From: Ectocarpus siliculosus
Taxonomy: Eukaryota; Sar; Phaeophyceae; Ectocarpales; Ectocarpaceae
Assembly: GCA_000310025.1 (NCBI GenBank)
Contig: FN649731.1
Span: 2,348,915-2,388,448, forward strand
DNA length: 39,534 bases
Reading direction: 5' to 3'
The notes beneath the pieces are model-generated. The model searched no databases. It saw nothing but the letters and a program-made list of their open reading frames with translations, and was not told the origin of the DNA. Shown in pieces: positions 3,339 through 37,500 of this stretch. Made by a program: the position numbers and the translations under genes. Every line of letters starts with the position of its first letter. Position 1 is the stretch's first letter.

Positions 3339-4623
3339 GCACGGGGTTACCCACTGTAGACCTCTCACACACGCCACTCACTTCTCTGCTGTGGGCAAGT
3401 CCAAAAGTTGAAATAGGTTCCATTTTGTAGAGTAAAGTATCTCCACGTTGTTGGCCGTCGATTTTTGAACCCGTGTCGTGTGTGTGGTTGTTTCGTTCGT
3501 TCCATCTATTCTGGGCGCCAGTCTCAACCTTTCGGTATATTCTATGTTTGATGCACCAGCCGGGGTCACACGAAGAAGGTACACACACACTGGAGTTCGT
3601 TGTTTCTCCATCGTTCTTTCTGCAATGCTTGGCTTCTTCAATTTTTTGCCAAGGGATGAAAATGTATGCAACCACGCCCTCATCATGTCCCGCCTGCTGC
3701 GTGCTGTCTTCACGTCTCGCCGCAGGTATCGAAGCATGAACGTCTACAAGGAACCGCCCGACAACCACCTATTCTAAACACACCAGAACAGCTGCTTCAT
3801 TCAGTGTTTTTTTCGTTGGACGTTGAAACGGAGAACATCCGTTGAAAGCGCGGTGTGGCACGTGACGTGTTGTGGTTCGCACACGCACACATACCGTTTG
3901 ATTAAGAGAGTGTTCATGTTTTTATGGCTCTACAAGACTGATTTCGTTTCATTGGGCAGTCGGTTGGCGCGGGACTATGGTTGTGTAAACACCATTTACA
4001 TTTTCTGATGGTGCCTTCTCATCAACAAACGCCCCCCAGATGAACACAGCAGGTAGCGGTTGTCTTGATGTATCCGTATGTTCTGAAAAATGTCTTGTAA
4101 AGGGCACACCTTGCCGCCGTAGGCGAACTTCTGTACGTATGGCGCTGCGGATGCATTACGTTGCTGAGTGGGCTGCTGCATGTACTCGTATTACGAAGAG
4201 TTTGACAACAACTTTGGTTGTACGCTAGACACACGTTTGGGCGTGAGTGACACATATTGTAGCATTTGGAAAACTTCGAGGCAATAACGGCCGCCGGCCG
4301 ATTTTGCCACCGCGATACGGAACGTTGCTTGATTCATTTCATGGTATCTGCGAGTTTCTTTCCTGTTTTTCTTGGTCGGGTAGTTTATTGCTCGCAATTC
4401 TCGAAAGAATCACGATCGACGAGTGAGTCAAGAAGCTGCGTGAGCACGGTTTGATTTATGTACCCGGTGAAGTTTCGTCTTGTTGGAGGTATGTTTTGTA
4501 AGATGTTGAGGACCGCTGGGCCACTTGACGAGGGTGAACGAATGGGAAAGTGAAAATCAAAATGAGCTTCTGGACTTCTGTCGGCAGCGGGCAGGCATTT
4601 TATGTGCTTGCCCCTGGTCCCCC
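3339..4623. other. Gene-free interval after the sulfotransferase
   Basis: It should contain the sulfotransferase 3' UTR. Only short overlapping open frames with no recognisable motif are present (for example 3478-3777). No RNA gene or terminator could be supported. Confidence 0.5.
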
Positions 4624-5136
4624 GCCCCCGGTGTTCGCCATCGGGGTTGGGTTTTCGTCGCTTGGCAACGGCGTTGTAGAACAAACCAATTTACTCCGTG
4701 AACTTGGCAACCAGGTTACCGTTTTTTTTTGCGGTAACCATGAATGGTGGTCGAGTAGATTATGTTGTGCGGGGTCGAGAACCCTCACTCCGCGCAAGGG
4801 GGATAATCGCACCACGTTGTGTTAAAATGGTAAAGCACCCTTGAGGCAGTTTCACAGTGCTTACAACCGTCTCTGGAAGTGAAAGCACCAGAAAATAAAT
4901 GAAGTCATACGCAGCTGTCATCCGTACGCAAGGAAGTAAACACAAGATGCCGAACACCCTTAGCAGGATGCAGCGCACCCTTCATGCGACTCGCCGAATA
5001 CCTCACGGCGCTTCGCGCTTGGTGATGTGAGAGCCTGGTCCGGTGAGGACCCGGCGTGCTCCGTCCCGGCTTTGTAGGGATGCGAGGTCAATGGTCTAAC
5101 GACTACGGCATGCACGACTATGAGTACACCCCCCCT
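4624..5136 (+). repeat. Dispersed repeat, copy A (full length, about 513 bp)
   Basis: Most complete member of a family with five copies in this window. Order: C-tract, a head beginning GGTGTTCGCCATCGGGGTTG, a hairpin GGTTACCG / T9 / CGGTAACC (4714-4739), a middle with GGTCGAGAACCCTCACTCCG, a second small hairpin CTCAC..GCGCTTCGCGC..GTGAG (5002-5031), and a tail ending CTATGAGTACACCCCCC. The 10-mer CTGGTCCCCC lies on both sides (4614-4623 and 5137-5146), a candidate target-site duplication. No credible ORF. Element class unknown; a non-autonomous retroposon is the leading idea because other copies are 5'-truncated. Confidence 0.85.
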
Positions 5137-5523
5137 CTGGTCCCCCCTGGGCAGCGCAAGAGATTTCACAATGCTCCACTCACTGCGCGGGATAAACTAG
5201 CGTTTTTATGCCAGCCCCGATTCACTGTCTGTGCCACGAAAAGAGCGGCAACAACACCCCCCTTCATTTTAGCAAAAGAACTTTCATCCTGTAGCAACAC
5301 CGCTACGATTTTCGAGGAGAGTACTTCATCTTCTACGACAAACGCGCATCAATCACCCTCAATTTACAGACGCTAGCAACCCTCTTTACGGGACCCTTTT
5401 CTGCGCTAGCCGTCCTCTGGGTAGTGACAGCGTACACCCCCACCAGCGAGGGTACATGTCATCAACACCACCCTACCAACGGCAACATCACCGCATTGTA
5501 ACAACGAACGGAAACACGTTTAT
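5137..5523. other. Intergenic, 3' flank of ESS-2
   Basis: Lies between dispersed-repeat copy A and the minus-strand stop codon of ESS-2, so it should contain the ESS-2 3' UTR. No gene or structured element recognised. Confidence 0.5.
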
Positions 5524-8500
5524 TCACTTCAAGGTCAACAGGCCATCCGTAAGCGACGTCTTGCGTTCAGGCGCGCCCGACTTCCTCTTTGCCGGGGCAG
5601 GCGAAGCCGGCAGAGGTGTTAGCCCACCTCGGTTGGCACCAGCCCCCCCCCCCGAGCGGTCGGTTCGCCTTCTTTGCCGTCCAGGAGTGAGCCCACCGCC
5701 GAACGGTGTGTCGACGCTCTGCCGCTGAGCTAGCCTCGCCGCCAGGCTTCGAGCGGCAGGCGTCACCGCCGCAGCCTTTCCCTTTCCCTTTCCCTTTCCC
5801 TTCGCGGGTGTCCTCCCACCCCTGGGCGTTCGTTTCCCCGTCCCGGGGGTTCGTCGTCCTGTGCCGGGCGTCTGAGGGGTCATCGGTGTTGCCGGCGCGG
5901 GCGTGTGCGTCCCCCTTCCGTCTGCGGCCGCGCCGGCCCCAAGCTTCGCTCGCTTCCGGCGAGTGTCTACGGCCTCGAGGCGGTGCGCAAGCTTGTCTCG
6001 CGCAGGGAGATCTTTAATCTCGAACTGCTGTTGGCCAACCCCGCCAACGACGCCTCCGAGTGTCTCCATGAAACTCGCCACGTCCATGGCCCCCCTGCCG
6101 GCCTCTGGGAGAGGAGTGGCACGCGGGTCGAGGATCATGGGAGTGCCGTCAATGGAACCCCAAGTGATCTGCGGAGAGTCTCCATCCACGCCTGGTACTC
6201 TCGAAGGTGTCATAGGTACTTCCTCGTACCCCGACGAGTCCGCCGTTCCCGCCAACAGCTCCGCAACGGATTCCCGCGACGACGAGGGCTTCTCAATTGG
6301 GGATGCCCAAGGACCTCGGCTTGGTTTCCGTGGCGCGGGGACCGGGAACCTCGTTGCATGGGCCTGAATAACCTTGGGGTTCGCTTTGACGACTACCGCA
6401 CCGCGCGAAACTGGTGGTGCTGGTCGTGGTGGTGCGGGCGGCTCATCGGCCCGTGATTCCGATGATCCAAAATCATCAACGCCTTCGTTCGAGTCTACGC
6501 GAGGCGGGCAATGTAAAGGTTCGTCCATTTCGGTCCGCTGTGTCGATCCTCCTGCGTTCGGTGGCCCTGAAGACTGATATTCAGGTTCGCCCTGGTGCGG
6601 TTGGTCGGGAGTCGCGGTGAGAGCTTCATCGCTAGAGGGCGAGGAAGAACAACCTCCTTCAGTTGCCGCGACTGCTGTTACTGCGGTAGCCCCGGACGAC
6701 TTTGAAGAATGGCAGTCGCCATCTGCAGATTCTTTGGTAGATGTTGCTGTAGCCCGCGCCACCCTCTTCACGACCTCTTCCGATTGCTTGATTACTCTTC
6801 GCTTCGTTGTTGCCGTCGCCGATGTTGACCCGTCCTTCACAAGAAGCTGAGCAGCCTCCGTAGGTGCTTGCTCGATTCTGCATATGTCATTCGACGCTGC
6901 CAAGTTCGGAGAAAACATAAGCTGGTTTCGTGTCCTGTGCTTCCAAGTCTTCACCTTCAGCAAGCAGCAAGATACGACAACAGGTGAAACACAACTTCTT
7001 CATGACCGCGTGGGGGTTACATCCGTTTTACGTGTACCGAGTACGGAGGCGATGTTGCAGCAACAGCCGTGATATCGTCGGCTGAATGCAGCGATTGCTA
7101 TGATCCTCCAACAACGAGGTGTGCCGTTCAAGAACATTGACGGGAGAACACCCCGCACAGACAATCTTCTTTAAAAAAGGGAGTGGCAATACTGCATGAA
7201 GGGGGAAATGTTTGTCATGTGCGCAACTAAGTGCGAAGGTATCTTGAGTGACAGGACTGGCTGAAGGACGTGAACCGACGTGGTGATTCCCAAACAGAGC
7301 CTGGCATGTTTGGGGTTCGGAAAAGCACGAGGCCGTACAATAGTACCTCCGTCTACTACGCGCCACGCTAATGTGCTCTGCACTGCACGTGAGTCTGCGA
7401 CGTCTCACCTGATTTGGTCGTGAATCTCCTATTTTTGGACGATCTGCACAAGCTGCGTCCATTTGCTCCCGCCGCTCGACGGACATCATCTTGCCGTTGG
7501 GGAGTATTAACAGTTTGGTAGACGTGGCGTTGTTGCCCTCCCCGTCTGGTGTGGTATCGTAAGCCCAGAAATATCGCCTTCGAAAAGCCTCCTGGTCTTT
7601 CTCCTGAAATCGAATGCGGATCAAGGCGATTGTTGTTGTTGTTGTTGTCTTCACATTAAACTCGTGCCAGTTGCGAACCCCAAAATCTAGCAAAGACCCG
7701 GTCCAATTGAGTAAGGTAAACAGACGGCATTGATGGGAAGCACGTGTTCTCCAAGCTCTCGCCGTCTCACGGCAAAGGAGCACAACACGTAGATCGGTGC
7801 AGCTGAAGAAGCAGAGGGATCGCAACTCCACGAACGCCAGTGAGGATACGCACCCCAGTGCCAGCACAAGACTGAAACCAACACATGACTGTTGTGCATC
7901 GGCTACTTACAGTAGGTCATTGTTGTGAGAAGAGGATACAGTAGATCATTATCTTGCCGCCCCTCTCACCTGTAGCTCGGCGAAGGCTTCGTTGTCCTCC
8001 GACGTATGTGTCGCAACGAACTTGGTGAGGGCGCCGCCGTTTCCCGCGCAATTCGAGGACGATGGTCCATCCGAATTGCCCCCACTCACTCGAAGCTCCA
8101 GGCCATCCCCATCAGTAGACCCGCCAATACTCCGTAGCCCAGTCACAGGGGTGCCTACCATGGAGCCACCTGCCGGTGTGCGGGAAGGTGTGGTGTCTTG
8201 GCCATGGTCGGCAAGCCCAGCGAGGGCTCGATACATCTTGGCGTTGTTGGGGAAGTAGTCCCCTTCAATAATCTCCCCCAGGCGGTCCACGTACTCTTCC
8301 TCCTCGAGAACCGTCTTTTTCAGCGGAACCGATCGCCCTTTTGGTAGTGGTGGGGCCATGGGGAGGGCGATTGCCCCACTCCCGGGACGAGGTCTCGGGC
8401 GCTGTATCCCCCCCTCCCCGCGTGCGTGCCATGCCCGTGGATCCTCCAACCGCGCAAGAGTGGTTGGTGTTGCCACTTCGAATTTACTCCCATCCGCAGT

Positions 8501-8545
8501 GATCATCTTTGGCCGCGCCTCGTCTCCGGGCATGTTGGTGGTCAT
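5524..8545 (-). CDS. ESS2: ESS-2/DGCR14 (Es2 family) splicing-associated nuclear protein
   Basis: Nuclear protein associated in animals and yeasts with late spliceosome (C-complex) function. Exons on the minus strand: 8545-7970, 7603-7409, 6954-5524, all phase 0, 733 aa (human about 476 aa). Family landmarks in order: VLEEEEYVDRLGEIIEGDYF near residues 79-98, HTSEDNEAFAEL near 181-192, VKTWKHRTRNQLMFSPN near 258-274, a VIQAHATRFPVP segment, and PQITWGSIDGTP near 518-529, then a basic TP-rich tail ending SLTDGLLTLK. The excess length comes from a low-complexity Ser/Ala/Pro linker and the C-terminal TPGTG and (GK)n repeats. The ATG at 8545 is chosen because it opens the conserved frame; the other ATG a few bases upstream stops at once. 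Head-to-head with LSM14. Confidence 0.92.
5775..5802 (-). repeat. Coding hexanucleotide microsatellite in ESS-2
   Basis: About 4.5 units of CCCTTT on the + strand, read as GGGAAA on the coding strand, encode KGKGKGKGK in the basic C-terminal tail of ESS-2. The hexamer keeps frame when its copy number changes, so length polymorphism would be tolerated. Confidence 0.85.
7630..7660 (-). repeat. Intronic TTTAATGTGAAGA(CAA)6 element, ESS-2 intron 1
   Basis: On the coding strand a 13-nt unique sequence, TTTAATGTGAAGA, is followed by six CAA units, ending 26 nt before the intron 3' end. The same sequence with seven CAA units occurs in LSM14 at 10231-10264, also in sense orientation and near an acceptor. 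The unit may be the tail of a truncated retroposon; that is inference. Confidence 0.75.
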
Positions 8546-8954: not shown

Positions 8955-11900
8955 ATGGCAGAAGAAGGCTCCGGGGTGCCCCTCGTGGGCTCTCGCATTA
9001 GCCTCATCTCCAAGAAGAACATTCGCTACGAGGGAACTTTGTACAACATCAACACCAGCGATGCTTCTCTGGCACTCCAAAATGGCAAGTGTGGTGGATA
9101 ATGGTTACAAAGTCTAGCCGTTCCCTCCTCTTTTGATGTACAGCCGTAGGTGCCTCTGCGGTACACCGGCAACCTTTATTCCTTTCGTTTTACCAAAAGG
9201 AGAAGAGGGTAAAGGCGCCAGGAAGGGATATGGTTGTCCATGCGATACCATGAGTTGTATTTCGTCGTTCACTTGGAGAAGTGTACACCAACTGACCTCG
9301 CGCACGCAATCAACCTGGCACCAGAGTGCCGGTTCGAACGTGCGATCGCTGTACCTACCCAGCACAGCCTCGCGCCAACCGACTCGAGACTAGCTCCCGG
9401 TGATGGTGGCCACCGCATGCATGATTTTCACTCCGTGACACGAATAAACAGTAGCCGCCTGGAGGCCTACTTGAGTTCATATCTCATGACCCGCAATGTT
9501 TACATGGAGGGCGTTTTTGTCCTCGCTCACTCTCGATTCCCCTCCCAAACGGGTACTACTGCTGCTACCCCTTTCTTGTTGACTGCTGTGAACTGTGAAC
9601 ACATGCAGTGCGAAGCTTCGGGACCGAGGGGAGAGTAGAGGGACACGTCATTCCTCCAAGTCAAGTCCTTCATGATTTCGTGTGCTTCCGGGGACAGGAC
9701 ATAATGGATCTCCACGTGCACGACGCAGAGGCCGATGAGGTAGGTGTTAGGTTGTGTTTGTGTGTACACGACCAATCGCGAGGCAGCCAACACCAACAAT
9801 GTACTTCCGTTACCACAGCATGCCTTGTGTGTTTGCATACCAGGATCCGATGATGACGCCCCGCAATCGTTGGGGGCAGCAGCGCGGGGCTGGGTCGATG
9901 GGCGGGTACCAACTAATTGGTTTTCGCTAGAAAGCTGTGTTCCAAGTGGATCTTTCGATGTGTCAGTCCCGTTAATTCGTGTTTGGTATGTATCTACGAT
10001 TGTCACGATTCCGTGGAGAATTTTGACGTCGTCGTTCGCAGCAGTTATTAATTAATCGACTTGGCGGCGGACAAAGTTGATTCCTATTGACTTGCGGACT
10101 CCTCGGGGCCAGTTTGTTTGAGCGTACCTTTTTAGGGTAAGTTAGCCTGTGACTACAGGAATCGACCGCGTCAAGTGTTGGATCAGTACGGACTTATGAA
10201 GGTACTGGGTAGAGAGAGATCGGAACGGTTTTTAATGTGAAGACAACAACAACAACAACAACAATGTCTGCCTTTGAATGCAGGGAAGCCAGGCGGCGCC
10301 ACCGCCACCGCCCACTGCTCCAGTTCAATTCGCCCAACCGCCTCAGCCGACTGGTCCTCCGCCTCCAAGTGGCCCTCCACCCCTCCTCAGCCCCGCCTTT
10401 GTATCGGTGAGTGCCGGCTGTTGACGGCGTGGGTCCACGCAGATCGGCGCTGACTGCTGCTGCAGCAGCTGTTTCTTCCGAGCCCTACTTTATCACGTCT
10501 CTTGGGAAGAGAGGACGTTTGTATCGTGCATTCAAGCTGACACCTTTCTGACACCTTTCGTCTGTGTTGAACAAAGTTGCTCATGATGCGAAGTTGTGGG
10601 CAAGGGAATCCTGATGTGAGACGGTGAGTGCTTGCTTGTCAACACATCAGTTCATTGTGTGAAGGCGCAAGTGTTGTTTGAGGGACACTTGTTAATAGCA
10701 AGAACGAATCGTTGTGTTTTCGCTGTCGTTCAACTGCTGTCAATTCTGATGCCCAGCATCAGCAGCAGCCGTACCAGCCGCAGCCCCACCAGCCTCCGCC
10801 GCAGCCGCAGCGGCAGCCGCCACCGCCGCCGCCGCAGCAGCAGCAGCAGCAGCCCCCGCCCCCCCCACCACAACAGCACGCGCGAGCTCCACAAGTCAAC
10901 AACGCTCAGCAGCAACAAAAGCAGCAGCCGAGAGCACTCACGAGCGCAACGTCCGGATCCCAAAGGTGGTCTTCTCCTCACTTCGCCATTTCGGCTTCTC
11001 CTAGAATACAGCTCTCATGCGATACTTCAAACGCTGTCGGTTTTGTTTCGTTTCACAGAACGAGAGATGAGTAGTCTAGCATGTCACCGAGATACGAGCT
11101 AGTGTTTCTAATCCCGCTCGCCGATTGTGTTCTTAGCGGTAGTCACTCACACTGGAATGTGTCGCCGTCCCTTACACCGTGGCGCCTTAGGATTAGGTGG
11201 TGGCTTTGGTTGATTAGAAGATATCCATAAATCTTGACCTTGTGTACGGGGTTCTCCTCGCCTTGACAGGGCTACGAATGGGCCTCAGAATGGGCCTCCT
11301 GCTCGGCAGCAGGCTACGCAAGCTGGCCAGAGGCAGCCAGCCCCTTCGGCAAGACCGGTGCCTGTAGCGCGTGGAGCACAGCAACGGAGGGCCGCGCCCG
11401 CCTCGTCGTCGCCCCGTGTAGCACAGGCGGCTGGGCAGGCTGCTCAACAAAACCAACGTAGGGCCCCGACGGGACAAAGGCCGCCCCCTCGGTCACAGCA
11501 ACACCAGCACCCCTCGCAGGTGCTTGATTTTGCGTGATGTGTTTATGTATGCAGGCTTCCTTCTGTTGTGCCGAATTATGTGAAATTTTGCAGATATTTC
11601 GAACTCATTTGATGTTCTTCCGCGATATCCTATCTTGCCAAGATGTTACGCGTGAGTGAGCTGCCTGCATCGACAGTTACGAGCATGTTCGCAGAGGGTG
11701 GTACGGTCAGAGTAAAGCGACCCCATTAGTAACTGTTGTACCCGTGTGCCAATCTGTCGCTTTGATATCCGTTTTTCCCTTCAAACCATACCGTTTCGAC
11801 CCACAACACTGCTGTTTTTCTGGTTTGCAGCCAACGGGGGCACCGCGGGGCCGGAGGAACGGCACACCTAGATCTCGTCAGCTAATTAATGGGGGTGGTG

Positions 11901-13999
11901 CGGGTAGGGGAGCAGCTGGTGGCACTAGCGCCACCTCAGCCCCTGCTCGGACGCCTGGGGTAAGAGCTCGTACAATCATAGTTTGATCTGTGCACCCTCA
12001 AGAAAGTTGAACTTCTTTTTTGTGCTCTGCAGGAATGACTAGCGAGAGGCATGCCTTGTTGGTTTTGATGATGGACTGCTGGTCCTTCTTGTGATGGATT
12101 CAAGTTTACCTGTGTCGCGGCCGACTTGCTATGCAAGCAGTGACAAGCTTTGTGGTTCGTGTCTGGTTCGAGACAGTTTTGCCAGTACTCGGAGACCGAA
12201 TGATCATGGCTACCCACAACGGATCGCTCACATGGTCGAGGAACGTCAACGTAGCGTGCCGCTCCTCGGTCGAACTACACCGACCGGCTGCTGATCCGAA
12301 GCTAGGGCCTTACCACACTCGCTGTCGCTTGGCCTCGTGCAAGTGGTATAGGCATGCGTTGATTTATGACGGGGACGCCGTCCGGACATGTACGCATCGG
12401 ACGTGTGGATAGTTTCGTCAGCGATAAAACAAGTTGCACCATCTCGTTGTCTTGTTGCTGTTGGGGTGCTGGAAGCTTTTTTCGATCGGTGCCCTCTCTC
12501 GATGTTGGTTGACACCCGTCTGTTGTTCCATTCAGGCGATGGTGGGCACTGGAGAAGCCCTGCTCAATATCCGAGCCAGAGGTGGCCCGGCGACGGACGG
12601 GAAGGGGGCGGCAAGCGTTCCCACCGCGCAGGAGTTTGACTTCCAAAGCGAGCTCCAGAAGTTCGACAAGGTGCCTGTACAACACTCTGTACCCATTTTG
12701 GGCACGAACAAGGGCGCAGTTGTCGGAAGAAACCGAGTTCCGTTCGTCATTTGTAGTCTTCAGGAAAACTTCGGTCCGGGGTGGATGGATATCCTGCTAC
12801 TATAGCTATGCGAGAGCGCACTCCAGCTGGCGAGGTTTTTCAGTTTCTGTATGCCGAGGGAGACATGTGCGTGTTGCTTGTCAGCATCACTTAATCGTAT
12901 CCAGGAGGTTTCGAAAATGGAAAGTCTGCACGGTCTGTACCGCTCCCGGCTACGGCGTAAAACGTGATTTTGCCACGTATGGTCACGTGTTCCGTGGGAT
13001 GAAAGTTTTCGGCGGAGTGCAAGCATGGCATCAGGTTCCAGCCGGTGGCGTATCGCAGTCTGCCTTCCTGAAGTCTATTGCAAGGTTGTATGGTAATGCT
13101 TTCGTTTATCGGTACCTCCCCCAACTCCTCATATTTGTTTGTCAGGAAAAAGAGCTGGCTAAGGAGATGGGGGGATTGAGCGTGGAGGCGTCCAACTCCA
13201 CGGCGTCATCGGGAGGTGCTGGAGGGGCGACGGACAGCGTGAAAAAATACAACAAGTCTTCGTTCTTCGATGAGATTTCGTGCGACGTGTTGGACCGTGC
13301 CGCAGGTACGGGAGGAAGAGAGTTGACGACAATTGCTTTATTGTTTCACAGGACACGCGTCAAGCTGGCTAGGTTTCACGATGGAGGACAATCCAGCTGG
13401 ACTCCCTGTGTCTTGCGCACGTCTAGAGTATGTTGTCTTGGGGCAATCGCAGATGTGTATTGTGATGATGGGTCCGAATGTATCTTATTAATCTATGGCA
13501 CAAACCTTCACGTCTTTCATTTTTGTCCGGCGTCTCATCAGGGCGCCAGCCGCGTGTAACGCGCGCGGCAGAGATGGACATGAACATGGACACGTTTGGC
13601 ACAACCGGCTTACAACACGCCCGACGCCGAGGCGGACGAGGTCACAACCGGAACAAACCTGGAGGAGGTGGGGCCGGCGGTGGCGGCCAAGGCACCCGCG
13701 GTGGAGTAGGAGCAGGACGCACCGGGGCCGGGGGCGGGGCCGGTACCGCTAACGGTGGGCGGGGAGGCGGTGGCGGTGGTCGTGGAGGAGCTGCTCAGGC
13801 TTCTGGAGGTGGTGGCCGTGCTAGAGGCGGAGGTGGTGGCCGTGGTAGCACAAGGGGTGGGTATGCTGGCGGTGGCAGAGGCGGGGCGGGACAGGCGCGA
13901 CCAAAGCCAAAGGGTGGGAGAGGACGGGGTGGCAACGCCCCTCAAGGTCAGCAGCCCACGCCAGGGCCCACCTCGGCCCCTCAGGCCCAAGCGGTATAG
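8955..13999 (+). CDS. LSM14: LSM14/Scd6/RAP55 family mRNP protein
   Basis: Cytoplasmic RNA-granule (P-body) protein that acts in translational repression and decapping. Exons: 8955-9084, 9609-9739, 9844-9905, 10289-10406 (10284 is an alternative start), 10757-10965, 11270-11519, 11831-11959, 12536-12670, 13146-13305, 13542-13999; about 593 aa. N-terminal divergent LSm: [19 protein letters not shown], then VRSFGTEGR and [12 protein letters not shown] long Pro/Gln-rich then Arg/Ala-rich linker (exons 4-7) precedes the FDF motif [14 protein letters not shown], the FFD box [13 protein letters not shown], the TFG box [11 protein letters not shown], and a Gly/Arg (RGG-type) tail. All junctions keep phase. 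Intron 1 uses a GC donor (GCAAGT), needed to form the VRSFGTE block. Exon 3 and its junction with exon 4 are the weakest part. Divergently paired with ESS-2. Confidence 0.93.
10231..10264 (+). repeat. Intronic TTTAATGTGAAGA(CAA)7 element, LSM14 intron 3
   Basis: Shares 31 exact bases with the element at 7630-7660 in the neighbouring ESS-2 intron. Both lie in sense orientation and end 19-26 nt before a CAG acceptor. Weaker similarity continues about 10 nt upstream (GGAACGG here, GGCACGAG there). Confidence 0.75.
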
Positions 14000-16954
14000 T
14001 GAGGTGGCCCCTCGGGCCCAACCCCTGCCCCCCCTCTCCTCCCCCCTGGCGCTCTGAGCTATTTGCTACGATTTGTTCATCGGGGAGGAGAGGCGAGAAC
14101 GAGCGTCCACGCGCGAAAGCGGAGGTGGAGGGAGCGTCCTGCTTGGGAGGATGCCACTGCTGCGGGACCCTTTTTCGTTGAAAGCGACTCCGCGCAGTTG
14201 CATGAAATTTCGGTCAAGAGAAAGTGCAGCTACGCAGTTTGTGGCAAAGCCGTATTCGCTGCGTAGAACGAAGGAAGTCCGTCTAGTGTTTCGTTGCTGT
14301 TGTTTAAATGTCACTGTCCGGATTTGGAGCAGGTTTAGCGGCTTTGTAGATTTTCTCAACGGTAGGATCTCAAGGATCGAATGGCCTCAAACAACGTTAG
14401 TTTTAGAGTATGGTCGACGTGTGTCATTCAGAATGGAAGATTGAGTCGTGTAGAGCGTGTGCGTGGGGTGACAAAAAACAAGCGATAATAGCTTTACGTG
14501 AGAACACAGAGGTAGATGCTTAGGTATTCACGGTTCGAGTATAACAGCGGTGTCACGGCCATTTTGTGAAATGGGCTTGTTCTTTGTGTTATTTTGTGAG
14601 AGGATGAAGTGTAACGGACTACCAACACGTGGCTCTCACGGAGTACCTATTGCTGTTGGGGCTGGCTGTGTACCGACGATGTTCAAAGTTCTACGTTACC
14701 TGCCCGCAGTATGCCCTTGAGGTTCCCAATCTGAATGCATATGGATAGGTGCAACCTCCTCCGGAGTAGTGGTATGAGTTGACCCCAAGACTCGAAGACT
14801 AAGTCATCCAAGCGCCCTCAGTGTTCCTGTTGGTCATTACTGTGGCTGGAATCCATATAATCCTGCATTCCAAACATCAGTCAACCCCTTACCCAAAAGC
14901 AAGAAACGCAGCCCTGTTGTACGCTGCACCGTGTACAACGTTTACGTGTTTACCGCACCCCGCAGCGCCGTGGGCAGCCTGCGCCTCTGGCTTTCCCTCT
15001 CCCATGAAACAAAACACGCCCAGCTCCCGAAAAACATGCATTTCGAAGTTGTAGAACTTCTGTACATGCGACCCCCCCGGCCTGGCGCACTCGGGGCACA
15101 CGGCCAACAAACCATGCAGACAGGTGGTGACAGCTATACCTGTCGTTCTGTCAAATGAGCGACTTGCAGAAAGTTGAGGAACGGCTGCGCCATCCGATGC
15201 CACAGCAAAGAAGGGCCTGACGGCAAATACCAACCGAAGGCTTACATCCATCCGACGCCGGCCGGCCTAAAATCACCGAACTACGCTGCCCGTGGCAATA
15301 AAGAGGTTCCTACAAGAGCAAGTACACTCATGCCCACCGCCCAGAAGTGACACCCCCACAAAACACAAAAACACCCGGCCGTGTGGGTCTGTCTACGTTC
15401 AGTCCCGTGCACACCACATGCGATCCTCCCGCTGGCGTATGTTGTCCTACTATGACTCTTCGATGCGATCAAACACAAATGAGGGGCGATGTATTTAGCA
15501 TGGGACAAAGACGGCCACTCAGCACTCAATAATGTGTTGGTGGTGCTACCACGGAGTCCCCCCCCCCCCCCGGGTTGAATCCGCGTGGCTCCTCGCTTGT
15601 TCCGCGCGCCGGCCTGGTCGTGGTGCTGCATGCACTCCAACACAATACATGGCAATCACCATCGGCTGCACCATTGGCACTCACAAAGCCATCGACTGCA
15701 GCAGCACTATAGTACGCACGATCACCCAGAGGTATTCTCTGTTGGTATCTGTGGATACGGAAGCAGCAGCTGGAGCAGGGCAAAGAGCGGGCCGTAGTTT
15801 CTGTCGTGCGGCCTGTCTCTCTTTGGGCCTCCTACTACTTCTGGAGGTGCTCGGTGGTTTCTCTCTCTGCCTCCGCTTCCTCTATCTGCACTTCCATCAC
15901 TTATACCGGTGGAATTGAAGCACATATCGGGATAAGGTGGGCGTGTGTTTGCTTTTGGATGAAAGAAAAGTTTGTATAAACACAGCAGTATGGAAATGGT
16001 ACATGTACAGCAGTACTTCGAAGGAGGAAACTGTTGTCCTGACAGACTTATGCTACAACTAAAATACCTGCTGTTACGACAGACAGAAGCACCATCTTAT
16101 GTCACAACTAAGCAATCTCTAGACAGCGCCAGGCATGTGTACTCAGGGATTCACCACGTTCGATTGAGGAGTATCGGCAGTGTCAGATTCAATTTTAAAA
16201 TTCAAGTTTGAAAATCGAAGAACCACAATTATTTTCATTCAGGTTCGTTTCTACGGTGTTGTATGCGTATTACGGGGAACATGTTTTCAGCGAAACCAAA
16301 AAAGGTAATCCCGCTTGTTCGTAACGAATTTGCGCTTGTGTTTTTCGCCTTCACCCGCACAGCACCACACACGACGACCGATCGACTTGACTTTATCGCT
16401 TACTCCAGCTCGATAATAATACCGCTTCTTGATGGATGATGGTAACATCAACATTTTACAGCAGTAGTGTTCATGCATAGGATTACATGTCTAGGCAGAA
16501 TATAGAAGATAATGGTTCCTTCTAGAAGACGCGGGGAGATGTAACTCCCAGCGGAAGGATAAAACAGGGGACAGGATCTCAGTAGCCCCTGCTTGAGCAG
16601 AGGATCCTGGCCCCCTCGATGTCAGACCTATCGCTACCCAAGGCATCAGCTACTGCTGCTGTAACTTCTACACGGGCTTCCCAGATAGCACCACGCGTGC
16701 ATACCACTACACTTGGCGTCGTCGGCAGGACACAGGGCCAGAGAGGTATTCACACTTCTTGTCCAAAGCACTCGATACATATGTTTGCAGTTTATGCATC
16801 GGTACGTTGGATCTGTGGACCTGCTCCCACGCTGATTTGATGCTTTCATGTTTCCGTAATTCAGAATATGTTCTCAATGCTTGCCTCTCGGGTGTTTTTT
16901 TTTTTGCCCCGAACGTTGAAACGAGGACAGGATTGCACACTTTTGGACAAGACA
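14000..16954. other. Gene-poor interval between LSM14 and MND1
   Basis: Begins with the probable LSM14 3' UTR and ends with a T13 tract (about 16899-16911) just before the MND1 start. A C12 tract sits near 15551. Short open frames occur on both strands. Only one, on the minus strand near 14954-15059, has a coding-like look and is listed separately. No RNA gene recognised. Confidence 0.5.
14954..15059 (-). CDS. Possible isolated coding exon, unknown product
   Basis: On the minus strand a CATGTACAG acceptor is followed by a GC-third-biased frame reading KFYNFEMHVFRELGVFCF and on, ending at a GTAAAC donor. Upstream in the same open frame is a CLHGLLAVCPEC stretch. I recognise no family and could not connect it to other exons. 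It may be chance open sequence or part of an unannotated minus-strand transcript. Confidence 0.18.
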
Positions 16955-19262
16955 ATGGTAAAGAGGGGACTCTCTGTGGAGGAGAAACGGGACAAGGTAC
17001 TCGACATTTACCACTCTACCAAGGCCATCTACAGCCTCAAGGAAATCGAGAAAGCAGCATCGAAGCAAGGGGTGACGATCAACACAGTCAAGGTACGTAT
17101 GTCAAAGCAGCGGCGCAGAAGCATCGACAACAGCCCCGATGACGACGACCTCGACATTGAAGCACTGCGACAAATAGTCGCAGCTCACGAACTTTCACGC
17201 ACATCGCAGTAGCACTCAATCTCACACTCAAGGTGGGGTTTTCCGGAGGCACCCCACACGTGTATGTGTGACTCGGGGACATTTGCGGAAATCGCAAAGA
17301 ACAGTGTTGTTCCCTGCGTTGTTGTCTCGCCCTTGTCCGATGACTCCGAACTATCCGATGACGCGCAAGCTTATCGATGGAACGACTCACGCATATCGTC
17401 TTTTTTGTCCTTCTCCCAACATCACCCGCCACAGGACGTGAACCAATCTCTAGTGGACGATGGCCTCGTGGATATGGACAAGATCGGCGCTTCGAACTTC
17501 TTTTGGTCCTTTCCTTCCAAAGTGGCGGTCACCAAACAAAATGTAGTCGACAACCTTGAGCAAAGCATCGCCAAGGTATGTACCGCTCCTGGCCGGATGC
17601 CCCATATTGCTCTACGAGGATCTTGCGCATACCACTACATTTGGGAGACTTTCAAGGTGCAAGGAATACGCTACGTGTACATCTACGTGGTCCATATTGG
17701 TTGCTTGAGTCGTCCGATGTGCTCGTGTACTCCACGGTCCGTTGTACTGGTACGTGCAATCGGCAGGTCGGTTTCTGTCGCCCGACGCTGACCAGTTATC
17801 GCATGGTTCATTCTACTGACGATGTGTAGGTGGCGGTACCTAGTTGGAATCATCAATTGCACACCGCACCCTTCTTTTCAATTCGCTACAATACACTGCC
17901 ATGCTTTTGTGTAAGGCCGAAGACAACACAGCAGCCAACAAGCGCAAGTTTTCGGAGCTTGAAGAAGGTCGTGCGGACACAGCAAGCCGAAGAGAGAAGC
18001 TTGGACGTTTGCAGGAGAACGGCCTACGGTGAGGTTGGCAAGCAATACCCCCGCAACTGCACGATCAACCAGCTGTGCGTTGAGGTTGAGGGCCGCTTGA
18101 TTGTGAGTTTGTGTACAACCTCGTAGTACCACAACCGGTTATGCTGTCAGAGACCATTGGCGTGTACGTGGTACATGTTTTCCCCCAGTGTCAGATATTT
18201 TTACTCTAGGTAGCCATGTCTATGCTTGCGTTCTTGCGGTGGTTGTAGTAATTTAATCTGTAGTAATTCAATTAGTATTCCATGTGTGCCCGCCTGGGCA
18301 GTTCCGGTAAGTGCGTACAACTGATATTTTCTGCCGATCCTGCCGCTCGCCGGATGTTTGAACCTTGTCGCTCACTGCATGTTTGTTTTTTGGTACAGAT
18401 TACAGGAGCTAGAGAAGGAGTATGAATCACTCAAGGAAAATGACCCTGCAGAGCTGGAGAAGGTCGCCCGTCTGACACAGGTGAGCAGTTTCGTTGAATC
18501 AGGTTCACGGGACATAGTTTACGCCGCGCGGCGTACCCATATGTATGTCGTTTTGGCATGGTATACTTGTAGCGCCTTCCCGGAACAAACGCTCTCTCCG
18601 TCGGGAAATACTGGCTGTCGGTGCCTCCCTCTCCTCGGTGTCGAATTTACCCGGACTTAATTTTTTTTGTTCTACGGATGCCACACTGCATGCAGTAGAG
18701 CCTGTTGCAACGAAACTGTGGAACTGTTCTGCATTGACTTAGCATAAAGGAGGAGCACGCGGAGGCACTGGATGGATATCACAGTAGATTTTGTTTGTAA
18801 CCAAGACAGAAATAGTACTTGGTATTTATTACACAATCCGACACGACCACCACTACGACAAACTCGCCTCAATTCAGCGCTTTTCTCTCGGTAAATGACA
18901 ACATTCAAACCCGCCGAAGACTCACCTGGCTCATGTGTGGCCCGAGCGCGCGCGTGTGGTTGCACCTTCCCTTCTCTGACACCGTGTTTCTTGACTATCT
19001 TCGAGTTCGAAGCCCTGCGTCCGTGACAACACTCATGTCCGCCTAGCTTGTTGTTTCACCCATCCACCCATGCGTCTTTGGAGAGTCGCACGCTACTAAA
19101 ATGTTATGCCCGAATCATCGTCGGTAGGTATGCAAGGACGGAGTCAATCGCTGGACAGACAATTCGTGGTGCATCAAGAGCTGGATGGTGAAGACGAAGG
19201 GAATGAGTGGGAAAGACGTGGACAGATATCTGCAAATCAAGGGAGACTTTGACCTAGTTTGA
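16955..19262 (+). CDS. MND1: Meiotic nuclear division protein 1 homolog
   Basis: MND1 pairs with HOP2 and stimulates RAD51/DMC1 strand exchange in meiotic prophase, in the nucleus. Exons: 16955-17092, 17435-17575, 17916-18028, 18399-18480, 19128-19262 (phases 0,0,2,0), 202 aa against about 205 in animals. The N-terminal winged helix starts MVKRGLSVEEKRDKVLDIYH and continues with SLVDDGLVDMDKIG and FFWSFPSKV (about residues 1-80). A charged coiled coil follows (RREKLGRLQENGL, LQELEKEYESLKEND, about 93-155). The C-terminal domain carries NRWTDNSWCIKSW and ends GDFDLV. The ATG at 16955 gives the family N-terminus exactly. The exon 3 acceptor (17915) keeps phase but could be a few codons off. A HOP2 gene is not in this window. 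Confidence 0.95.
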
Positions 19263-28512: not shown

Positions 28513-31500
28513 ATGTCGTTATTCATCGACCCGGACACCTTGCCACCTGATTGGCAAGGTTTCGTCCAAGTGTGTTTCCTGATGCTTGTATATGGGTACA
28601 TCCTATTCAGGTGAGTGTGTGCAGTCTTTGTACGTAGCATCATGAACTTTTAGTTCGCGTTCATCTGCACATGCATACAGACGACGGAGTCTAGTTGGAT
28701 GATTACAGCTGTTCGGGTTGAAAACCGTGCCGCTCTTTAGAGATGTGTTGATGGTGTAGTTCGGAGTAACTCAACATTTGTGTAACAGAACACGGGACTG
28801 ATGTGTGTATGCTCCGCACGGTTTGCTGTTGTGTTTGCTGGGTTCACCCCCGTTTCTAGCGCATCCAACATGATCTCGGATGGGTCGGAGCTCCTGCTGC
28901 TGGTTCCGTCGTTGGCTGGCATCGTGGGTTCTGTCGTGCTTCCGGTGCTGGGCGCAGTCCCTGACGGCGCTATCGTTCTGTTCTCGGGGATGGGTGATGA
29001 CGCGCAGGAAGAACTTTCTGTCGGTGTCGGTGCTCTTGCAGGATCGACCATCATGCTGTTAACCATACCTTGGTGAGAACTATCCCGTTGATAATCTGAC
29101 TTGTGCACTGCTGTGCATACAAGCTGGCTATAGTTCTTCCGTGCCGTGCCTTTTCGTTACGGGTGGTTGCTCCGCTGAAGAATACCGCGATACTGCGATC
29201 CATGGACAGCAGTATTCCAACCAGTGCGGAATTATTTAGTTTAAATCAAAGTGTGCGTTTGTTTAGTTTGAACACATTGTTTCTCGATCCATGGATGGAA
29301 ACCAACCAGCAACGATGCAGCAGCACGGCACGCAACACAACTCTTGTGCTCTGTATGCATACAATTATTTAATGGAACCAACGAGCACTCGGATCGTACA
29401 TGTATGCTACATGTGCATATTGATGGAAACTGGTCATTTAGTCATTTATGCATTCACACATAGACTGTCATTGCTCTGGACGTCATTTTTCCCTTGCCCG
29501 TAACACGGATTGGAGCTCCTGTCTACCCGGCACGTATGCTATGTGTTTTGTGTTTTCGTACCATTTATTATGGCGACGGTCTCCCCATTTTCTTGGTGAG
29601 ACGTGTACTACACTCACTACAACCATTCAGGGTCACACAGGAGGGGTTAAACACCAGGGCGTTTTCTTCTTTTTATTTATTTTCGTGCCCCACCTTCCTC
29701 CTGCGGTGCGTGCTGAATTTAATTTTTATCGCGACAAGGGTCTAGCCGTCCCTTTCCCTCGTCAACGGTGCTAACGTCGAAGTTTGGTACTCTCGAGACC
29801 TTTTCAGCTATATTTCGCTTTCACCCGCAAATTTTGTAATTTTTTCATACCGTGGGGATTCGGACTCACGACCTCTGCGACCAGCGAGGATACCACTAGA
29901 CCACCGGGGCGACCAGTGATGAAAAACAAATAGGTGTAGCACGCTCGTTGTGGCGAGGGCAGTCGGCCCAACAAGTCGCAGTCTTGTTATTTACTGGAGT
30001 ACGTGTCACTTGTAGTTCAGATGTCAGCTTCAGCTTCTAGTCACACGATCACAGCAGATGTTGCACCCCCCCCCTTCCCCCCCCTGCCATCGGGGTTGGG
30101 CTTTCGTCGCTTGGCAAAGACGTTGTAAGACAAGCCGATCGGTTGGTGAGCTCGACAACTAGGTTGCCGCTTTTTTTTCTTCCTTGTTTTTTTCGCGGCA
30201 ACCATAATGTGGCGAGTAGATAATGTTGTGCGGGGTCGAGAACCCTCCCTCCACGCAAAGGGGATTGATCGCACCACGTTGTGTTATAATGGTCAAGCAC
30301 CCTCGAGGCAGTTACACAGTGCTACCAGAAAACTAATTACGTCATTCGCAGCTGTCATCCGTTGCAAGGAAGTGCGCACAAGATGCCGAACGCCCTTAGC
30401 AGGATGCAGCGCACCCTCCATGCAACTCGCCGAATACCTCACGGTGCTTCGCGCTTGATGATGTGAGAGCCTGGTCCGGTGAGAACCCGGCGTGCTCTGC
30501 CCCGGCTTTGTAGGAATTCGAGGTCAATGGTCTAACGACTACGGCATGCACGGCTATGAGTACACCCCCCACCGCAGATGATGGATACGGCGGTTGAATG
30601 ACTCGTATACCTATCCCTGTCTTCGATACATTGTGAGGAGACCTTGCACTATTGCCATACGACCAAATGATCAATGATCAAATACAAGTAGATATATGCT
30701 CAAACGCTTCACCTATGCGACCCTAGAAGGACACGTTCCGGCGACAGAACGAGGAAAACAACGATACTACATATATAGGGAGGAGCATGAGCCGTGGGGT
30801 CGGCTCAGTGCCTGCGGTCGTCTGTATCTGCGATGCTTAGTGTGATGGGGACTTCCTCCGCACGTGATGCATACGTACCCGGAAGGTATTGAGTGGATCT
30901 TCAAGATTGTGCATCCGCTCCCCCCTTGTATCAAATGCTACACCAACGAACGGCGGAGGAACACACACACGTGCCGTGACACACGCGATGGTACGGCAGT
31001 ACCGCCAAACGATCGGCACCTAACAGCACTGCCGCCGGCAACAAATGAACAATGGACAGGATTAGAATACACTACTGTAGATAGAACCCTCGGGCAGCAC
31101 GGTGTGGAAAGCAGGTGGAACTGGCAGGAGCACAGTTTCATCAGAGCCAGCTCGCGTTCTCTCGCATGTACTGTTTGTTCAACAGTTCAGTGTCTCTTCT
31201 GTTTCGCTTGCTGCAGGCGGCGTCGTTTGTTTGCTTCCCTTATCCCCCGCCCTATTGTTGTCCAGCGAAAGACGTCATCCCTACATCGTTCTGAGTCCCA
31301 CATGGCGATTGCGGCAACAACGCCAATCGCCTCAACTTCGCTCTCCGCTGTTCCTGTTGCTGCTGTGGGCAAGAAGACCTCAATCTATCCTTTGGTCACT
31401 CATCGATTTTTCCGACGTCAAATAGAACCGCCAAGACTTTCCCTGTTGTTTAGCCAGAGAGCGGGAACCAGGTCTACTGTTTGCTTCTGTGCTTTTCCCT

Positions 31501-34500
31501 AAAGAAGGGATTAGACCACGGCGGGTGGGTGTGATGTTGAGGGTGTGCTAGACATCAGCGGTATGCTACCTCTGTTTCTTCCCAAATTTGAATCGCGCGC
31601 GCTTGAGATCTCCGCTTTTATAATCCCGCAACTCCAGGCCATGGGGTGAGGTATCTCCTACGAATTTTGGCACAAATATCTATGAGTCACGGCCATCTCT
31701 CGCCGAAGCACGACCAAACCGGTGTGACGAAGATTGCCCTATTCTTCTCCCTCCTCAGAAGCCAACAGATCGTAAATCGGTGATCTATAGATATCGTTCT
31801 GGTCCCAGTGGGTTATCTAGGCTTCCCGGAAATGCAAGGTTTGGGCCCCTGCATCGCGACTGGAACAGGCCGATATTTAGAGCCTTTTTTTTCCCTCCTG
31901 GGACGGAGAGGAAAGAACGGTCGCCCTTCGCGCTCTCCGCGGCTCATTATTGCTGTAGTAGGCCTTGCGTCCATGCCGTGGTCCTATTCTCGGTTTCCCT
32001 CTCGACATTTGTCACTGTAGTAGTTCCCTACCTCGTAGCATCAAACAAACATGGGCTATCAGCCCCCCCCCCACCCCCCAACAACTGTCTCTGGAAGTGA
32101 AAGCACCAGAAAATAAATGAAGTCATACGCAGCTGTCATCCGTACGCAAGGAAGTAAGCACAAGATGCCGAATACCCTTAGCGGGATGCAACTCACCCTT
32201 CATGCGACTCGCCGAATACCTCACGGCGCTTCGCGCTTGGTGATGTGAGAGCCTGGTCCGGTGAGAACCCGGCGTGCTCCGTCCCGGCTTTGTAGGGATG
32301 CGAGGTCAATGGTCTAACGACTACGGCATGCACGACTATGAGTACACCCCACCCCCCCACCTTGCCCCCCCCCCGGTGTTTGCCATCGGGGTTCGGGTTT
32401 TCGTCGCTTGGCAACGACGTTGTAAAACAAGCCGCCCCCCCCGGTGTTTGCCATCGGGATTGGGTTTTCGTCACTTGGCAACGACATTGTAAAACAAGCT
32501 AATTCACTTCGTGAACTCGGCAACCAGGGTACCGTTTTTTTTTACCTCTTTTTTTTTTTTTTGCGGCAACCATAATGGTGGTCGAGTAGATCATGTTGTG
32601 CGGGGTGGAGAACCCTCACTCCGCGCAAGGGGGATGATCGCACCACGTGGTGTTAAAATGGTAAAGCATCCTCAGGCAGTTACACAGCAGTGCTTATAAC
32701 TGTCTCTGGAAGTGAAAGCACCAGAAAATAAATTAAGTCATACGCAGCTGTCATCCGTTGCTAGGAAGTAAGCACAAGATGCTGAACACCCTTAGCAGGA
32801 TGCATCTCACCCTTCATGCGACTCGCCGAATACCTCACGGCGCTTCGCGCTTGGTTGTGTGAGAGCCTGGTCCGGTGAGAACCCAGCGTGCTCCGTCCCG
32901 GCTTTGTAGGGATGCGAGGTCAATAGTCTAACGAGTACGGCATGCACGACTATGAGTACACCCCCCCACCCCATATTCTAGCAGTGTGGATGTCACCTGG
33001 TTTTATTCGCGTCAAGCGAGTTGATTCAGCAGCAGTGCAAAAACCGTGGTGCTTGCGCGTTGGCCCACCAGTCGGTTAGATCACTCAAATAAATACTTCG
33101 TTGGGATTCAAGTTGATGAGGGCCCCGCTTGTATCCTCTTGTGCGTTGCCAAACTACACCCGGCGCCCTCGCACACCACTCGCGGCGGCGTGACCGGCTG
33201 CGGTTGCTTGTCAAGAATTGTAGCGACGCGCAACTGAAGCTCTCTGCCGTGAGCAAAGTTTCTCGCTCGTGAGCAATGTTTCTCGCTCGCACCATGCCAC
33301 CCTTGCAGGAGTTGCTCGACGTTAAAAAACCCTGAAGCCAGTCTTTTTGTGTGTTTTCTTCACATCACATTGCAGGTTCCTCGCAACGTGGGGTGGCCGT
33401 GTGGATATCGACAAAGAAACTGGCCTGGCCGTTTACAAACGCCCGTCGGGTGTGGTCGGATGGAGCAAGCTTACGCCCGGACTCTCTTTCATGGAGACCC
33501 TCCTGAATTCTGGTGTGACTGGTAGCCCTCAGGTTAGCAAGGGAGGCAAGCTGATGATGATCACCAGCATCAGCTACTTCATCATCCAGGTCAGTGCATC
33601 ATGTGGTCGAGCAGTCTTTTGATGGTACATAGACTAAAGTATGTTGCCGACATGTTTTTTGCTTCGCAACGTTTTGCAGGTTCTGGGGGCGTGAGTAGAG
33701 AAATGGGCAGTGGTGCGGGGAATGGTCGGGGGTATCGCGGCACTGCCCTATCGGAACCAACGTTTCATGTTCATGCTATTATACAAACGCCGTAATCAAT
33801 GGGCATCCCCCAACCGTGGGTGCATGAGACACGAAAAACCACTCCTGCTCGCATCGCGCGGACCATGTTAGGTGGATGCGGGTATGACATGCATTGAAGG
33901 CCTGCTGTGATTTTGTACAGGGCACCTCTCGCGTTCACGCTTCTTGCTGGATGCTGTGACGTTTTCGATTGTGCGCAACCTGCTGTTTTTGTTTTTCCGC
34001 ACGACAAGCCGCGGCTTTCGAGCTCCCCTGGGCGGATATTTTTCATGTTCAAGGTTACGGTAGCGTTACCCAGGATTTCGGTGGAACGATTACGAATTCG
34101 AAACACACCTGCCACAAGCGTAGTGCTTGTTCAAGTTCAGTATACAGGATGGTTCGGGATGCACACCCGATTTAACTCATCAGCAAATTGTTCACGCGTT
34201 CTTGTCAATTAGAAAACATCAGTTTGCACAGGGGTATGCATAGTACGAATGAACCTGTACTAAGCTATCCAACTACCACGTCTTTTACTTTTTCGGGGGG
34301 GGGATGATCGACCCAGGTATACAAAGTGTCGAAAGTGTGAATTAATTCATGACGAATCCTGGACACGTATCTGTTTCCGTAAGAACAAGACACCAAAATG
34401 CGAGGAAACGGAATTTTGAACAGTTGTTTGTGACGCCTTTGTTGCCGGCTTTTGGTCATGTCTAATTGGCCATGAAAAGCCGGCACTCCTGACCAACGAG

Positions 34501-37500
34501 GAGTATGCTTCGAACTTTTGTGTTTGGATCTGAAACGTTGTGAAGGCTGCCGATTGCAGGGACCGGTTCTCATCCCTTATGAACAGCAGTGTTGTTGGTT
34601 GCCACTCATAGTCCCAGCTGCTCCCTCAGCTTGCGAACTATCGTTTTTTTGCCAGGGTCCCGCATTTTTCTTGTCTGGCGAGACTGACGCAGAGGTTTCC
34701 GCTGGAGAATCTGGGTTCGCTCTGGCTGGTCTCATCACTTGCACGGTGCTCTTCGCGGGATACCTTTTCTACCAGGTTTGTCTGCCCCCCCCCCCGCTTT
34801 TTACATTTTGCCTTTGTTTTTATTTGCGGTAACCATAATGGTGGTCGAGTAGATTCTGTTGTGCGGGGTCGAGAACGCTCACTCCGCGTAAAGGGGGTGA
34901 TCGCACCACGTTGTGTTAAAATGGTGAAGCACCCTCGAGGCAGCCACGCAGTGCTTATAGCTGTCTCTGGAACTAAAAGCATCAGAAAATATATCGAGTC
35001 ATTCGCAGCTGTCATCCGTAAGCAAGCAAGTACGCACAAGATGCCGAATACCCTCAACAGAATGCAGCACACCCTCCATGCCCCTCGCTGACAACCTCAC
35101 GGCGCTTCGCGCTTGGTGATGTGAGAGCCTGGTCCGGTGAGAACCCCGCGTGCTCTGTCCCGACTTTGAAGGGATGCGAGGCCGATGGTCTAACAACTAC
35201 GGCATGCACGACTATGAGTACACCCTCCCCACGCGCGCCGGACCGTGTGCTTGTGAACGCTTGTGATCTGCGTTGAAATCGTTGTGAAGAATGCAAAGGC
35301 TCAAATATTGTCCACTCCGCTTACGTCGCTGCCCGACGAAACACCACCTATGTCAAAACTGCAGTGGGAGTTGAGTCGTACGGACAGCGATCAGGTCTTT
35401 GAGGACTACATGGAGGAGGTCAGGCGCGAGAAGATCATGAATGGCGAGATCTCGTTGCTCGGCGTCATGCAGGCAAGAATACCAGTTCGCAACTTGTTGG
35501 TCATTTTTTCCTTGGCTAGAGTCGTCACGCTCGTTCGTGTCAGGCCTTTGTGGGTGTACCAGCGGTGCTGCAAATTGTTTGTGTCGTGAATGGCCCGTTC
35601 TGTGTTTGCCGTATGTCCGTCAGCCGTGATTTTCTTGTTTTATGCCCGACGTACTGACAAGGGGAAGCAGGCAGGGGTTGTTGCGTTACAACCCCTCTGA
35701 AGGCGTCCTTTTTTCTTTGTCTCCGCAGCTTTTTGAGTCTTGTCGGCTGTGGGACTGAGGCGTATGTCCGACGCTTGCGTGTATGAATTATGTCTGTGTC
35801 TATCATTTTCAGGCGGAGCTTCGATTCGCTGCGACCCGTCAATCAACCGAAGAAGGCTACCAGTCCATGGACGGGGTGAGCGCGAGAGGGAGCGCTTAAG
35901 CTCAAGAGGAGGTTGGCCCAGTTGGTTGTCTTTGGTTTATTGTGAGAATCTGCTCCGAATGCATTCATATCGCCCCACTTGCGGCTGTCTACATTACTGG
36001 TAAAGTTAGCTTCTGCGACTTTTTGGATCCGAGTCACGACGAATCTTGCGCGTCCTCTACCTTTTGTTCCCACACACGATTCGGCTGCAGGGCAACCTTG
36101 CTCTCCCGGAGATCGTTATGCGGCGCCTAGAGAAGCTGCTGAGGCCTTTCTTCGATAAGTACGACGACGACAACAGTGGACAGCTGGACAGAGGAGAGTT
36201 CTGGTCGGTTTTCCACGACCTTCAAGAGCATGTCCAAACCTCGGTCAGTGCAATCGGCGTGCAATGGAGGTTGAGTCAGGAATCTACACGTCATGCTGCT
36301 TATATATGTATGCCTTTGTACCCTTGTCCCGGTCGAGGTATGCCGTTGTAGCCGCCCCAGAAAATGTCGAGACTGCCGCCGTGCTACAGCAGTACATTTG
36401 ACTCGTCAAATTCTGGTTGCATGTTGGACGAACCACCTTTTGCTACTCAAGGAGCTGAATGCTATCTTCGAAAAGATCGACACCGACCAGTCGGATCAAA
36501 TCGACTTCGATGAGTTCGTGACGGGTGTGGCAAAGTTCGTCCTGGAGAAAAGCCCGACCGGTACCATCAGGTAAAGCAACGCCTACTGTACTGTTGGACA
36601 CAACTTGATGGTGTTTGGACGGCTTTCGTCGTGTCTTTACAAGCAGATACTGCTGTCTGTTTGCTCCTGTTGTGCGAGCGTTGGTCCTTGGGCACTTGGA
36701 TCGCCTATGCTGACGCGCTCACTGTGTACCATATGCCCTTTTTTCGTGAGTAGCTTTTTCGGCTTGGGCTTCGCCGTTTCGAGATACATCTACCTTTTGT
36801 TTTCGTTGAACCGGAATGGCTTTCTGGACCTACCCGTTTCCAGCCAGGACTCGTCATGTGTTGAAACTGGCTTTCTCACCTGTCAACTAATTTTTTTCTG
36901 ATCGTTTCTCCGTCTCAGCAGCCCTCCGCCGGCAGCAATCGACGAAGCGGCGGATGACGGTGATTCCGAAGAGCACGAAGAGGTCAGAAATACTCGCAGG
37001 CTCGTATGCATGTCATGTTTGTCGAAACAAGAAAGTCTTGAATCGTATCTGACTCGAACCAATTTCTGCTCAGCAGCTTGTGGAAGTAGGCCCGTGAGCC
37101 CGTACTGTATTCTCTTGGTAAATAATGGTCGAAAATTTGCTGCTTTGGATTCTGCGAGAACTTTTTACCGTTGTATCAACAGCAGTTGTTTCGCACTTCG
37201 TACATTGCCTCTCTGTGTGTCCCCTTGAATCTGTACGGTGTCATGTCATAGATGCCGGAGGATCTGGCACACCTCAAACCAGAGGAACAACAGTACCACG
37301 TCAAGATGCGCGCGGCTTACCTCATGACGGTCGGGACAGCCCTAGTGCTCATTTTCTCAGGTAAACCTCGCAGCTGTCCTCCTGGCAGACGGGCCCCTTC
37401 TCATGACCGTATACGCCAATTTCGGAGCAAGCTTGTGTCTACGGACAACGTTCGTAGTGCAACACGGAATTTGCAAGTCCTTGTCCCTCCAGGACTGTAT

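Follow-up and report, generated by a model that had tools for sequence, protein, structure and literature searches.

The question raised by this locus is what kind of element recurs, between C-tracts, along the window (the whole stretch of 39,534 nt of Ectocarpus siliculosus DNA analysed here), and how those C-tracts came to lie at its ends. The window is eukaryotic, as indicated by Es2 matches in two minus-strand ORFs (5524-6963 and 7949-8545), an Mnd1 domain on the plus strand (17264-17791), kelch repeats (23903-24304), and a Na/Ca exchanger match under the Pfam cut-off (38022-38510). Its G+C content is 52%, CpG is not depleted (observed/expected 0.95), and its genes are apparently intron-bearing. 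Several other features were recorded along it: homopolymer-rich low complexity at 1-90 (G11, C24), resembling a contig end of poor quality, a stretch of about 125 bp duplicated in tandem with 92% identity at 19721-19975 (self-BLAST), a perfect 31-base inverted repeat at 7630-7660 and 10231-10261, 2.6 kb apart (self-BLAST), and low-complexity coding-like stretches, Q/P/A-rich and RGG-rich, at 10753-14054, with a weak FDF-domain match under cut-off, which we take to be perhaps an LSM14/Scd6-like gene.

Self-BLAST of the window revealed five copies (A to E) of a common repeat of about 0.5 kb, all of them on the plus strand, with pairwise identities of 80-97% over the aligned parts (Table 1). A repeat profile made from copies A, B, D, and E, with copy C left out, matched all five copies as well as an extra 5' piece of D, and nothing else in the window up to E=10. 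The five same-orientation copies described in an earlier note on this DNA were thus borne out by both searches, their placement on a single strand being weak evidence in itself (1 in 16 by chance). Without the C-tracts, the core is about 480-520 nt long in copies A, B, and D. In the shared 3' part, identities among the five copies ranged from 83.6 to 97.3%, with 97.3% for A-C, 95.4% for C-D, and 94.6% for A-D, and with 83.6-88.9% for B or E against the other copies. The repeat was the only sequence common to the copies, as their flanks were not shared (self-BLAST), and four of the five were found within 5.2 kb. Copy E lies between two putative same-strand exons in a gene model drawn by eye, and Pfam gave no match for the exon peptide of this model. 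All inferences on the family are drawn from these five copies within the window.

Table 1. Positions in the window of the parts of the five copies and of the candidate target-site duplications.
Feature	Position	Strand	Evidence or remark
Copy A, left candidate target-site duplication CTGGTCCCCC	4614..4623	+	10/10 match to right copy
Copy A, 5' C-tract (GCCCCC)	4624..4629	+	
Copy A, full-length core (GGTGTT...GAGTACA)	4630..5128	+	self-BLAST, profile
Copy A, 3' C-tract	5129..5135	+	
Copy A, right candidate target-site duplication CTGGTCCCCC	5137..5146	+	
Copy B, left candidate target-site duplication GCAGATGTTG	30054..30063	+	9/10 match
Copy B, 5' C-tract, interrupted	30064..30084	+	
Copy B, core, start 6 nt inside A/D start; internal gap of ~25 nt	30085..30564	+	self-BLAST, profile
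Copy B, 3' C-rich tail	30565..30573	+	
Copy B, right candidate target-site duplication GCAGATGATG	30574..30583	+	
Copy C, 5' C-tract at truncated start	32063..32079	+	
Copy C, core, 5' truncated by ~240 nt	32080..32346	+	self-BLAST, profile
Copy C, 3' C-rich tail; TTG alone between tail and next C-tract	32347..32361	+	
Copy D, outer 5' C-tract	32365..32374	+	
Copy D, extra 5' unit of 60 nt with the beginning of the element only	32375..32434	+	self-BLAST, profile
Copy D, C-tract (C8) joining partial unit to full unit	32435..32442	+	
Copy D, full-length core	32443..32960	+	self-BLAST, profile
Copy D, 3' C-rich tail	32961..32972	+	
Copy E, 5' C-tract at truncated start, nine bases past putative exon end	34785..34795	+	
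Copy E, core, start in internal T-rich tract	34796..35222	+	self-BLAST, profile
Copy E, 3' C-rich tail, interrupted	35223..35230	+	

Analysis of the ends showed one and the same 3' end in all five copies, consisting of TATGAGTACA and then a C-rich tail interspersed with A or T here and there, in which C-runs of 3 to 7 are followed by interruptions. The 5' starts vary: A and D open with the full-length start GGTGTT, the first 6 nt are missing from B and about 240 nt from C, and E begins in the internal T-rich tract. The loss of the 5' part from C and E and the 3' tail kept by every copy, both reported before, held in this analysis, but B also begins inside the full-length start, and the fixed 3' end, found in 5/5 copies, has an exception in the 60-nt 5'-only piece of D, which is without a 3' end. 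Copies C and D stand head to tail, nothing but TTG and C-rich sequence separating them, and self-BLAST aligned the two units of D over 66 columns with 93.9% identity.

C-rich sequence was found beside all six 5' starts and all five 3' ends, in agreement with the C-tract bounds first described. At least five C directly precede each of the six 5' starts, as against 0.24% of 36925 background positions, although each start had been set as the first base past the tract, so that the six-of-six count is partly circular; the profile alignments at B, C, and E open within 1 base of the starts so defined. The 5' C-runs are 5-11 long, and longer when interruptions are allowed. The starts preceded by C include three new start points (B, C, and E) in addition to the full-length start of A and of the two units of D. 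The C-runs at B, C, and E thus tie the tract to the junction and not only to a fixed end of the element, and this presence of a C-tract on truncated 5' ends too, to which the earlier note had not drawn attention, is the most informative feature of the family; the C-run at the full-length start may be merely encoded. Such C-rich junctions look unusual among retroposons, and no paper on C-rich or poly-C retroposon tails was found among open-licence papers.

Long C- and G-runs are also present elsewhere. In the whole window, 18 C-runs and 5 G-runs of at least 7 were counted, compared with 1.9 and 1.4 in simulations, and 12 of them (8 C and 4 G) were located outside the copies and the window start, in 36925 positions, the background counts leaving out the first 100 bases of the window and the copies. 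These unattached runs are at 5643, 8408, 10859, 14028, 15072, 15558, 20860, 20869, 21468, 27413, 27723, and 34295. Segments with C- or G-tracts at their ends were also inspected by eye within 14960-15700, 20780-21560, and 27300-27860, and no duplication was seen to flank them.

Target-site duplications were searched for as 10-bp words that could lie up to 3 bases away from the outer tract edges. Copy A showed CTGGTCCCCC on both sides, outside both C-tracts, with a 10/10 match equalled by 38 of 19045 C-rich random pairs, and copy B showed GCAGATGTTG and GCAGATGATG outside its C-tracts, with a 9/10 match reached by 0.155% of 20000 random draws; in this test, the tract boundaries were chosen after the candidate repeats had been seen. 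No duplication was detected by the same test for the C-D array (best 6/10), C alone (6/10), D alone (7/10), or E (5/10). A looser search gave weaker values (A, p=0.06; B, p=0.018; C-D, 0.29; E, 0.71), and in it the left flank of A gave 7.35 against the right flank of E and 6.1 against its own right flank. The duplications at A and B are candidates, probable rather than proven. As both lie outside both C-tracts, the tracts of these two copies would not simply be the target.

The fixed 3' end, the variable 5' ends, and the probable target-site duplications together point to target-primed reverse transcription (TPRT), the process that the earlier note had considered; this proposal stood in part, with the 3' end in 5/5 copies, the variable 5' end, and the candidate 10-bp duplications of A and B in its favour, and the missing duplications at C-D and E against it. 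The repeat is a real family, best read as one of a known kind, a non-autonomous TPRT retroposon, and its junction feature is unusual. Our main reading, to which we give a probability of roughly 0.45, is that of a LINE-dependent (SINE-like) retroposon whose C-tracts arose from G addition and template jumping; the RNA intermediate, the dependence on a LINE, and both of these reactions are what we infer. Under this reading, the element would borrow the enzymes of a LINE encoded elsewhere in the genome and would be inserted by TPRT. Its RNA would end in the C-rich tail, and reverse transcription would begin there, which would keep the 3' end constant and often cut the 5' end short. Once cDNA synthesis was complete or aborted, the reverse transcriptase would add an untemplated G-run (C on the plus strand), and this G-run could base-pair with the C-rich tail of another RNA and allow a template jump. 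Jumps of this kind would produce the extra 5' piece of D and the array in which C and D follow each other head to tail. Junction synthesis would, in this way, account for the presence of C-tracts even where the 5' end is truncated, for the one between the two units of D, for the C-D array, and for the position of the A and B duplications outside the tracts.

Further points speak against this reading. No partner LINE came to light in the window, short of a frame-by-frame scan. The reverse transcriptase of R2, for which non-templated addition is described as aiding template jumping, adds 3-4 nt and at most 7 (PMC8857657), a length exceeded by C-runs of 5-11, and C/G runs are common in the window anyway, as shown by the 12 of at least 7 outside the copies. 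That every cDNA was begun and ended with long untemplated G-runs, giving C-tracts at all junctions that were sticky for template jumping, so that the family would be a record of G-tailing in TPRT, we consider rather unlikely.

The serious rival, somewhat unlikely in our view, is that the same TPRT retroposon inserts into poly-C microsatellites. Here, the C-rich RNA tail would anneal to the target's G-strand, and duplication of the C-rich target would yield C-tracts on both sides, even on 5' truncated copies. Non-LTR lineages that target microsatellites are known (PMC4640811), and a preference for simple-sequence targets is possibly common to them and to the repeat. The 8 C- and 4 G-runs outside the copies exceed the 1.9 and 1.4 expected for the whole window, E and C-D are without duplications outside their tracts, the target site of A is itself rich in C, both of its break points falling within or beside C-runs, and the C-D array is bordered on both sides by the C-rich 12-mer CCCCCCCACCCC, the right one of which may be the element's own tail. 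However, the candidate duplication of B is not C-rich and lies outside a 21 bp 5' C-tract and a 9 bp 3' tail, so that B contradicts the C-tract as a target, a role that it would at most possibly have at the other copies, and the tract between the two units of D could not be a target unless the array arose stepwise. Because of copy B and the tract inside D, junction synthesis is slightly favoured over poly-C targets.

Penelope-like elements, for example those of the Chlamys group, form tandems and carry hammerhead ribozymes. A non-autonomous element of this type, typically found as partial head-to-tail tandems, would fit both the extra 5' piece of D and the head-to-tail order of C and D, and Chlamys elements are present in Ectocarpus (PMC12477816, Table 1). 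In contrast to this expectation, no hammerhead core was found by pattern in any copy, nor did Rfam give a match in any of them (copy A was also scanned alone), the three Rfam matches in the window being all far under gathering score and all outside the copies. Moreover, tandem units occur at one place only, A and B being solitary and provided with candidate duplications, and this origin therefore appears improbable. Equally improbable is a spread at the DNA level, by segmental or unequal duplication via C-tracts or as a DNA transposon without inverted termini: four of the five copies do lie within 5.2 kb, C-tracts could mediate misalignment, and a tandem duplication could explain the extra unit of D (93.9% over 66 columns), but the copies share the repeat and not the flanks, they have several 5' starts and one 3' end, A and B show candidate duplications, and no terminal inverted repeats joining the two ends (arms of at least 10 nt) were detected in A, B, or D.

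Coming back to the LINE-dependent retroposon, the content of the copies was also analysed. The longest ORFs overlapping A and D encode 106 and 93 aa, respectively, and a 144-aa ORF overlaps E; Pfam gave no match for any of four ORFs or stop-free stretches, which overlap copies A, C, D, and E. ARAGORN detected no tRNA. Simple patterns for the generally known Pol III box motifs, scanned over A, B, D, and E, revealed an A-box-like word in each of these four copies and no B-box word on their plus strand, with one on the minus strand of B only. A canonical SINE was rejected on these grounds, with no Rfam or tRNA match and an A-box-like word without a B-box on the plus strand, although the repeat may have a decayed or other promoter type. 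The predicted fold of copy A had a z-score of -1.91, with 6/100 shuffles as good, and in four of the five copies (C left out) 2/136 predicted pairs showed two-sided change, with an unfavourable covariation term; for this reason, no conserved fold is claimed. An internal T-tract of variable length is present in A (4710-4740), B (30155-30205), and D (32520-32575), flanked by complementary arms in A (GGTTACCG/CGGTAACC) and B (GGTTGCCG/CGGCAACC) and by imperfect ones in D. In addition, the first 13 nt of copy A (4630-4642) are 92% complementary to the internal segment 4946-4958, a pairing not reported for B and D at the same settings.

Strict SINEs are, like the repeat, short and dispersed, with a fixed 3' end, and the repeat shows candidate duplications in some copies and an A-box-like word. 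They have a Pol III promoter head that derives from tRNA, 5S or 7SL RNA, whereas the repeat has no tRNA or Rfam match and no plus-strand B-box in the four copies scanned, and its internal T-tract would be expected to stop Pol III. With R2, the family would share the proposed junction chemistry, although R2 is autonomous and rDNA-specific, unlike the repeat. Relatives were sought with DNA patterns taken from the 3' half of the element, without a match in viral contigs and genome contigs, and a single 20-base pattern match was dropped, as it showed no match of more than 20 bases to any copy. BLAST of copy A against phages and of copy D against plasmids gave no match either.

Among brown algae, Ectocarpus has been described to harbour short non-autonomous families that depend on LINEs (PMC12477816), so that the statement in the earlier note that no described family has this layout was too strong. 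One of them, RTEX-N1_Ec32, is a LINE-dependent non-autonomous element of about 600 bp with more than 6000 copies and a 5' region whose origin was not determined (PMC12477816). Compared by description, RTEX-N1_Ec32, of about 600 bp, and the repeat, with a core of about 480-520 nt, are both short retroposons, the latter of presumably LINE-dependent type. The family may already be catalogued in the published Ectocarpus library, as judged by description and not by sequence, and the term "C-rich" is absent from the main text of that publication (PMC12477816). In Nemacystus decipiens, SINEs were reported to make up 0.0024% (RepeatMasker with Repbase; PMC6418280), a share that neither supports nor excludes the family.

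In conclusion, if the C-tracts were made during insertion, each copy would record how a reverse transcriptase started, ended, and switched templates in vivo, and the poly-C/poly-G runs of such genomes could partly be scars of retroposition. If the C-tracts were the targets, the family would be a retroposon directed at poly-C, a finding likewise of value.
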